Source: Halostella limicola | Lineage (GTDB): Archaea; Halobacteriota; Halobacteria; Halobacteriales; Natronoarchaeaceae | Assembly: GCF_003675875.1 (NCBI RefSeq) | Contig: NZ_RCDI01000001.1 | Location: forward strand, 1,054,001-1,118,000 | Direction: 5' to 3' | Length of the DNA: 64,000 bases | In this document: positions 6,705 through 54,810 of the stretch, piece after piece | Numbering within the stretch: the stretch's first letter is position 1 | How the letters are laid out: each line of letters begins with the position of its first letter | Program-made: the position numbers and the translations under genes | The notes under the pieces: model-generated | The model's database searches: none | What the model was told of the DNA's origin: nothing | What the model saw: the letters and a program-made list of their open reading frames with translations, nothing else

Positions 6705-6742
6705 CCCGGAAATCGAAGATTTCCGGGCGCACGAAAAGCTGT

Positions 6743-6758
<16 letters not shown>
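6705..6758. repeat. Two tandem perfect hairpins at the icd stop codon
   Basis: Hairpin 1 has arms 6705-6714 and 6718-6727 (10 bases, CCCGGAAATC) with a 3-base loop. Hairpin 2 has arms 6732-6743 and 6747-6758 (12 bases, CGAAAAGCTGTC) with a 3-base loop. Four bases separate them. Hairpin 2 contains the icd stop codon and its last five codons. An imperfect 15-base copy of the icd end (AACATCGARAARCTS) lies beyond hairpin 1 at 6690-6704. It may act as terminator or mRNA stabiliser, or be a small inserted element. Confidence 0.75.
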
Positions 6759-53814: not shown

Positions 53815-54810
53815 TCAGTGCTCCAGGACCGTCCCGTCGGCGCCGACCGCGACGTCGGGCGAGGCCTGAAGCACCGCCTTCAGGTTGGCGCCGGTCGGCG
53901 TGTCGACCGCCGTCCAGCGCTCGCCGTCGTACTCGTAGAGCTTGCCGCCGCCGCCGACGGTGAAGCCGCCGTCGCCGTCGACCTCGACGTCCTGCAGCGT
54001 GGCGTCGCCCGTGTCCGACGAGGTCCACTGCGAGCCGTCGTAGTGGAAGACCATGCCGCCGCCGCCCGACACCCAGACGTCGTCGCGGGTGTCGGAGTCG
54101 ACGTCATCAGACTCCGTCTGATGGGCTGTCACGCTTCGCGAGACAACGCCGTAGAAGTTGACGTTGGCGTCCTGCAGGCCGATCGGCTCCCACGTCTCGC
54201 CGTCGGTCGTTTCGAACACGCGGCCGTTCGTGTCGACCGCGTGGCCCGTCCGGACGTCGCGGAAGTCGATTGCTTGGATGGCGGCACCGCTCCCGGGCGT
54301 CACGTAGTTCCACGTGCCGGTCGCGCCGTTCTCGAAGCTGTAGTAGATCTTCCCGGAGTCGCCGGCGACGTAGACGTTCGCGTCGCCCGCGGGTCCCTCT
54401 GCGGCTACGTCGTTGTAGTTGTTCGTGTTGTCGTTCGGCGCAGAGTGGTCCTCCAGGTTCCCCGTCTCCACGTCGTACTCGCCGATCGCGCCGCTGGCGC
54501 CGACGAACCAGAGGCGCTTCTCGTCGTCCGTGGCGTCGGACCCGTACAGGTCGTTGCCGTTGCCGGTCGGACCGCCGTCGAGGACCTTCCGCCAGCCCTC
54601 GCTCCCGCGTTCGAGGACGATCCCGCCCTCGCCGACGGCGTGGTGGACGGTCGCCGTCGCGTTCACGCCGTGGAGCGTGTTCGCGGTCGGCGTCTCGACG
54701 ACCGTCCAGCCCTCGTCGCTCGCCTGCGCGGCCGCCGGCACTGCCGTGGCCGCGGCGGTTCCTCCGATCGCCTTCAGCATCGTGCGTCGGGTAGGTGTCG
54801 TGTCGAACAT
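53815..54810 (-). CDS. Tat-exported beta-propeller (YCF48/BNR-like)
   Basis: A 331-residue exported protein. The twin-arginine signal is TRRTMLKAIGGTAAATA (8-24). The mature part is built of propeller blades with DVWVSGGGGMVFHYDGSQW, GFTVGGGGKLYEYDGERW and VAVGADGTVLEH, as in YCF48 or BNR/Asp-box proteins. Residues 222-240 (SRSVTAHQTESDDVDSDTR) break the blade pattern; they are encoded by two adjacent hairpins (54105-54144) and may be an in-frame insertion. Ligand and role unknown. Confidence 0.85.
   Translation of the reverse strand: MFDTTPTRRTMLKAIGGTAAATAVPAAAQASDEGWTVVETPTANTLHGVNATATVHHAVGEGGIVLERGSEGWRKVLDGGPTGNGNDLYGSDATDDEKRLWFVGASGAIGEYDVETGNLEDHSAPNDNTNNYNDVAAEGPAGDANVYVAGDSGKIYYSFENGATGTWNYVTPGSGAAIQAIDFRDVRTGHAVDTNGRVFETTDGETWEPIGLQDANVNFYGVVSRSVTAHQTESDDVDSDTRDDVWVSGGGGMVFHYDGSQWTSSDTGDATLQDVEVDGDGGFTVGGGGKLYEYDGERWTAVDTPTGANLKAVLQASPDVAVGADGTVLEH
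54105..54144. repeat. Two tandem 3-base-loop hairpins inside the propeller ORF
   Basis: Hairpin 1 pairs CATCAGAC (54105-54112) with GTCTGATG (54116-54123). Hairpin 2 pairs 54128-54134 with 54138-54144 (six of seven pairs). Each loop is three bases and the spacer is four bases (54124-54127). The same plan is seen at the icd stop (6705-6758). The encoded peptide SRSVTAHQTESDD interrupts a propeller blade. Confidence 0.65.

Follow-up and report, generated by a model that had tools for sequence, protein, structure and literature searches.

Several small palindromic DNA elements are known to enter genes or to spread without an enzyme of their own. The Rickettsia palindromic elements RPE-1, RPE-4 and RPE-6 are short palindromic DNAs found in frame within many unrelated, apparently functional genes, sometimes as dimers or clusters (PMC3733652). 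RPE-4 and RPE-6, together with dRS3, are included among the CGTC-tagged REPs (Di Nocera et al. 2013), which have been reported from five bacterial phyla only and for which no dedicated transposase has been reported (PMC3733652). The PATEs of Haloquadratum, with their IS605-type terminal palindromes, are small, non-coding and make no target duplication, and their terminal-only versions of ~52 bp are possibly mobile (PMC3119063). The same genus carries SMR-A and SMR-B, transposase-free small repeats that enter PATEs, also without target duplication, and whose mobilisation is unknown (PMC3119063). No archaeal in-frame palindromic family was found in the open-access literature, subscription papers being outside the scope of the search.

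The element described here lies in a 64,000 nucleotide stretch of the Halostella limicola genome (the window). Like the Rickettsia elements, the haloarchaeal unit is palindromic, dispersed, in frame in unrelated functional genes and missing from orthologues, and so meets both criteria for the comparison. The Rickettsia elements are bacterial, however, and their dimers and grouped repeats encode 20–30 residues, whereas the haloarchaeal unit is a fixed 45 bp element with two triloop hairpins, placed at RRC|G, in one archaeal order. A first-pass annotation of the window had already drawn the parallel with Rickettsia, which holds as an analogy; the haloarchaeal element may work like an RPE, but kinship is unproven. 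In-frame palindromic insertions, so far an oddity known from Rickettsia and some bacteria rich in REPs, extend with this family to another domain of life.

With the CGTC-tagged REPs the unit shares stems of about 8 bp, pairing of hairpins (dimers are common in REPs), intragenic copies and the lack of a dedicated transposase, although only Y1 was examined here. On the opposite strand, its right end and target read C|GTC, the C being a target base, followed by a stem that often starts and ends with AT. Membership of the REP family as defined is nevertheless not met, as loops are 4–5 nt and stems 8–9 bp there, compared with 3 nt and 7–8 bp in the haloarchaeal unit. REPINs and BIMEs with RAYT also use paired short hairpins as the mobile unit, but the haloarchaeal one has neither the GTAG tag nor a RAYT partner, is only 45 bp long and is largely genic in the set read.

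A 45 bp insertion in a beta-propeller gene

The host gene gives PSII_BNR/Ycf48 and TAT_signal matches that are weak and under the curated cut-offs. It and the parts of the insertion are as follows (R2 is the family covariance model described below).

53815..54810, minus strand: Tat-signal beta-propeller (BNR/Ycf48-like) gene of 331 codons, host of the insertion (open reading frame)
54148..54150, minus strand: left target codon GGC; consensus GAC/GGC, RRC (site statistics)
54103..54147, minus strand: 45 bp element, 15 codons GTT..GAC encoding VVSRSVTAHQTESDD, between codons GGC (G) and GTC (V) (filled/empty comparison; R2 match)
54127..54145, minus strand: hairpin 1, TGTCTCGC-GAA-GCGTGACA, 8-3-8, with one T.T mismatch in the window copy (folding; family alignment; R2 match)
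54124..54126, minus strand: spacer GCC; the family spacer is 4 nt, since the adjoining pair often fails to form (23-41, present in 9 of 20 copies)
54105..54123, minus strand: hairpin 2, CATCAGAC-GGA-GTCTGATG, perfect 8-3-8 in the window copy; family core 7-3-7 (folding; family alignment; R2 match)
54103..54105, minus strand: GAC, the element's right end (boundary inferred by comparison with 20 empty sites; right-end triplet GAC at 58 of 77 independent sites)
54100..54102, minus strand: right target codon GTC; first base G at 97% of sites (site statistics)

The element codons, from 54147 down to 54103, are GTT GTC TCG CGA AGC GTG ACA GCC CAT CAG ACG GAG TCT GAT GAC. The first-pass annotation had described two hairpins with 3-base loops, four bases apart, at 54105-54144, and folding confirmed them, the spacing of four holding for stems delimited as in that annotation. 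On the plus strand the first is CATCAGAC-TCC-GTCTGATG (8 bp, perfect, loop of 3) and the other is (T)GTCaCGC-TTC-GCGaGAC(A), which forms 7 of 8 pairs around a loop of 3 and has a single A.A mismatch. The peptide then read from them, SRSVTAHQTESDD, is encoded as claimed, the complete insert being VVSRSVTAHQTESDD. The DNA folding energy of the segment (z = -3.5, with none of 200 shuffles equally good) is by itself not decisive in a 4 Mb genome, and the comparison of homologues is.

Alignment against close homologues in nearly 30 further haloarchaeal genomes shows the additional 45 bp only in the window gene and in that of H. pelagica, one of five Halostella genomes in the comparison. All other aligned homologues read NFYG|VDSD without a gap and are shorter by exactly 45 bp, so the segment is an in-frame insertion, as the first-pass annotation had suspected. 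That annotation had allowed that its proposal would fall if many genera carried the same peptide here with the pairing broken; nothing of the kind was seen, the insert at this site being limited to the two Halostella species. The propeller gene of the sister genome QS_9_68_17 is 90.7% identical at the DNA level and has no insert, nor do those of two further Halostella genomes. The insert is found in two more distant species and is absent from the sister species (L004/L009 versus L003/L008).

The H. pelagica insert differs from that of the window at 3 of 45 positions, and each has a single mismatch in hairpin 1. Because these mismatches sit at different pairs in the two species, the ancestral insert probably had two perfect stems, TGTCTCGC-GAA-GCGAGACA and a perfect second hairpin. 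The inserts are 93% identical and the genes 80% (binomial P ~0.013), and the hairpin 1 sequence common to both inserts is unusual within the family. Judged from these sequences alone, the history of the site would fit either a single insertion that was later lost precisely, or passage of the segment from one species to another. Separate insertions of this rare variant in the two species would be less likely than loss or transfer. AlphaFold2 models of the propeller (three sequences) reached a pLDDT of only 50, too low for a fold search, and offer no more than weak evidence that the insert lies mostly in coil between predicted strands. A PDB search returned no solved structure with the insert peptide. 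An example of a tryptic peptide across the insert is SVTAHQTESDDVDSDTR.

Distribution, pairing and host genes of the family

A covariance model built from the window and H. pelagica copies (R1) gave full-length 45 nt matches in other genera (E 1e-11 to 1e-6), which are in-frame inserts in unrelated genes. At E<=1e-4, a second model (R2), from an ungapped alignment of 20 copies, matched 334 of 392 Halobacteriales genomes, representing 82 of 95 genera; with scoring limited to 16 candidates per genome, copy numbers are lower bounds. A control model (R3), made by reversing the R2 alignment with composition and pairing retained, matched none of the 392 Halobacteriales genomes. In a phylum sample of 197 genomes, R2 matched 23 Halobacteriales genomes and none of ~164 from outside the order. 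The propeller site is the only strong R2 match in the window (54145-54101, 61.4 bits, E 7.6e-15), and 54103-54147 is almost certainly an inserted member of the family. An exact search of the window's own genome with the hairpin 2 core did not reveal the family, for which the covariance model was needed, and an exact search of IMG/VR with the hairpin 2 core pattern found no viral carriers.

The family has the form RRC|[NN, 8-3-8 hairpin, 4 nt, 7-3-7 hairpin, GAC]|G, and its stems covary. Pairs are formed in 91.9% of the cells of the 20-copy alignment, with two-sided changes (n = 57) in 14 of 16 pairs, and none of 500 shuffles was as good; the sequences were retrieved with a structure model, which biases them towards pairing. 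The same two-hairpin sequence, for example TGACGAGC-GAA-GCTCGTCA..TCAGAC-GCA-GTCTGA, recurs in unrelated genes and genera. Chance hairpins are ruled out by the 45 bp empty sites and the family search. The best joint explanation, to which a probability of about 0.8 is given, is that the propeller insert is a copy of a dispersed family of 45 bp palindromic insertion elements of the Halobacteriales, including the inference that the units move, or moved, as hairpin DNA.

About 150 distinct copies were fetched, and 149 of the 150 read lie on the sense strand, in a single codon phase, within an open frame of at least 100 codons. The genic share is overstated, since R2 was trained on coding copies and non-coding arrays exist. 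Together with 20 host genes that have empty sites (below), these numbers bear out the earlier suggestion of a class of palindromic elements that can enter coding sequence, the proposed covariance-model search having recovered it across the Halobacteriales. From their protein sequences, the hosts are presumed to include valyl-tRNA synthetase (ValS), Mre11, MutS, ThiI, PurC, PurL and GatD, and likewise PEP synthase, threonylcarbamoyl-AMP synthase, dihydrolipoamide dehydrogenase, ABC exporters and acyl-CoA synthetases. Many other hosts are taken to be histidine kinases, in which the units occur in tandem. Collapsing related hosts and excluding the histidine kinases left 77 independent host sites. 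At the RRC^G target sites of host genes, this strand and phase would be available only 34% of the time (41% for GACG), so that some filter must act on the phase and strand of the inserts, the simplest being selection against stops and against basic or hydrophobic readings.

The encoded peptide has 15 hydrophilic residues with the consensus [VAST]-[VDA]-E-[RQH]-[SGR]-S-[TSA]-x-[SNRH]-[RQ]-T-[EQ]-S-[DG]-D. Acidic and serine-rich loops are favoured in the proteins of halophiles. This background, and the uniform and hydrophilic nature of the encoded peptides, would suit an origin at the peptide level, with haloarchaeal proteins repeatedly acquiring such loops and the hairpins arising as a by-product of codon bias. 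That account was already disfavoured and is barely credible, as the DNA is common to unrelated genes and shows compensating changes in both arms, the reversed model of equal composition matches nothing, a non-coding version of 46 bp occurs in PATE-like repeats, and orthologues are shorter by exactly 45 bp. On the insertion-element reading, mobile DNA has been adding 15-amino-acid loops to haloarchaeal proteins, which accounts for many unexplained 15-residue insertions in haloarchaeal alignments (VDERSSSAxQTxSDDV, VEHGSTSxRTESDD).

In haloarchaeal histidine kinases, tandem 45 bp units (VEHGSTGSRTESDDS repeated) follow FENLFRN, within the N-box region of the ATPase domain. Such arrays were seen at L132:1366-1545 and L167:1544-1678, and in L126, L151, L160, L185 and L106. 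Histidine kinases with these peptide arrays have been shaped by repeat DNA.

Empty sites, boundaries and the icd hairpins

Empty sites were sought for 20 host genes, using one concatenated query against 14 congeneric genomes. Orthologues without the insert were found for these genes, and nearly all comparisons had a gap of 0 once the 45 bp were removed; one orthologue (L246) also carries the insert. Stems are conserved or perfect in many copies, as would be expected of selected regulatory mRNA hairpins (acting in stability or pausing) that are not selfish insertions at all. Such a role is very unlikely to explain the family, because presence differs gene by gene among congeneric species, host genes and positions are unrelated, and each propeller copy already has a stem mismatch. 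Where the ends of the element carry unlike dinucleotides, the empty site usually retains the right one, and the element is accordingly delimited as NN, hairpin 1, 4 nt, hairpin 2 and GAC, placed between codons.

The left target is GAC at 44% of sites (background 9.5%) and GGC at 17%, and base +1 is G in 97% (background 48%). The left dinucleotide equals the right target at 28 of 77 sites, where 13 are expected, and the base directly left of hairpin 1 equals its right counterpart in 55% (26% expected). A full target-site duplication of 3–5 bp is unsupported, both at the propeller (GGC on the left, GAC on the right) and in general; whether there is a short or partial duplication, or a site-type preference of element lineages, remains open. 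The definition of a MITE is not met either, as there are two internal hairpins and no outer terminal inverted repeats, and the propeller site has GGC on the left but GAC on the right.

The first-pass annotation had linked the propeller hairpins to a similar pair at the icd gene.

6705..6758, minus strand: probable relative with longer arms, at the icd 3′ end, AAC|AT-hp1(12 bp)-TGCG-hp2(10 bp)-AAC|AT (boundary plan; R2 match to the sister-genome counterpart, window copy unmatched)

This link stands in part. The boundary plan is the same, and the icd-adjacent counterpart in the sister genome (L049:1402-1454), with second hairpin TCCGGAC-GGA-GTCCGGA and spacer GGCA, is an R2 match (E 2e-5), but the window copy itself has no R2 score and stands at the stop codon, not inside the frame. 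The 5′ arm of icd hairpin 1 re-encodes the Icd C-terminus (IEKLS-stop), and a remnant of the original gene end follows. It is plausible, though less certain and resting on sequence comparison only, that the icd element is a relative with longer arms, fixed at the gene end in several families. Elements at the 3′ end of icd were also seen in L048, L049, L051, L053, L056, L057 and L058, from several families, and not in L050.

The repetition of the gene's own 3′ end in the icd arm bears on a further account, in which the hairpins are made in place by local mutation, through template switching or fold-back synthesis where short inverted repeats occur, without any unit that transposes. Fold-back synthesis naturally yields triloop hairpins, and the left dinucleotide shows a weak correlation with the right flank. 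As a general explanation it is nonetheless unlikely: the same two-hairpin sequence occurs across unrelated genes and genera, and past the last base there is little similarity to a copy's own flank above that of shuffled flanks. Near-identical copies at unrelated sites of one genome, without a local source, would also oppose it and were partly seen. Insertion of a dispersed unit remains the preferred reading.

Non-coding relatives and possible routes of movement

In genome G061, a 46 bp two-hairpin unit occupies at least nine PATE-like repeats, and the repeat also occurs in that genome without the unit (filled, TTCTACGAC[GTTGTCAGACTGCGTCTGACAGCCCACCAGACGGAGTCTGGTGAAC]GCACTTTGCAG; empty, TTCTACGACGCACTTTGCAG). 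These repeats (gtgaactaccccgccct...agggcggggcttcctgc) are at loci L308-L316 and L328-L351. G061 has a low GC content and many Y1 transposase pseudogenes, and looks like Haloquadratum in its repeats. Two other genomes, G046 and G008 (L317-L326), have high-copy arrays of related two-hairpin units outside clear genes, with ends CGCGCGTGC...GCACGCGC, possibly an archaeal BIME-like repeat. Since non-coding copies exist in the G061 repeats and the G046 and G008 arrays, the unit behaves as DNA that can be inserted with no dependence on a reading frame.

The haloarchaeal unit is distinct from PATEs in being a separate 46 bp insertion that some copies of a PATE-like repeat contain and others lack. Identity as a PATE or an IS605 derivative is not met, as it inserts into the PATE-like repeat of G061 and the 30 Y1 loci searched are without a convincing R2 match. 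SMR-A and SMR-B differ in their length (80–110 bp, compared with 45–46 bp), in having terminal inverted repeats where the present unit has two internal triloop hairpins, and in not being reported as in-frame coding insertions.

Spread at the RNA level would account for sense-only, gene-only copies such as the 149 of 150 in the set read: the unit would invade mRNA, for instance as a small structured RNA that reverse-splices, and be copied back into DNA by reverse transcription. Against this, there are intergenic arrays and copies within PATE-like repeats, antisense relatives lie in TnpB genes (L072, L077), and the sense bias can also be obtained by codon-level selection. No linked reverse transcriptase is known, though none was looked for, and this route is considered quite unlikely. 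Movement as DNA is the route inferred here. The units would move, or have moved, as single-stranded hairpin DNA, recognised by its structure in trans by a nuclease or transposase encoded by the host or an IS, and copies landing in coding DNA would be retained only if readable and if the added acidic or serine-rich surface loop were tolerated.

For the joining of the ends, an IS200/IS605-type (HUH) join of target plus fixed right end would be a likelier match than full target duplication. In favour of such a route specifically are the hairpins, and the empty sites that retain the right dinucleotide, the left one being the element's own; but left and right dinucleotides correlate, which is not predicted by a pure fixed-end model. 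No convincing R2 match was found within 1.5 kb of 30 Y1-transposase loci, and on this ground IS605 parentage was rejected. Y1_Tnp is absent from several copy-rich genomes (G004, G008, G011, G059, G135, G247, G316), no transposase adjoining copies was found (Y1 only was examined), and no mobility was observed. An IS200/IS605-like route is possible but must be regarded as doubtful. Somewhat better supported, although still short of an even chance, is the broader proposal of an order-wide, transposase-free 45 bp class, precise at codon boundaries, that places 15-residue loops in essential proteins (ValS, Mre11, MutS, ThiI, PurC, PurL), is the first counterpart in archaea of the in-frame elements of Rickettsia, and is mobilised unlike known routes, by structure-recognised single-strand transfer with no dedicated enzyme. 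Many of the host genera can be cultivated, some are open to genetic work, and sister species offer perfect empty sites, so that movement without a transposase, excision, and the tolerance or use of the added loops by proteins are now testable questions.

A second class of two-hairpin units was also observed, with a longer first hairpin, the spacer TGCC and CRTCAGAC-GYA-GTCTGAYG-ACCG; its members are antisense to the gene and in some cases lie within TnpB genes. It is found at the TnpB C-terminus in L072 and L077, and in L067, L069, L070, L094 and L099.
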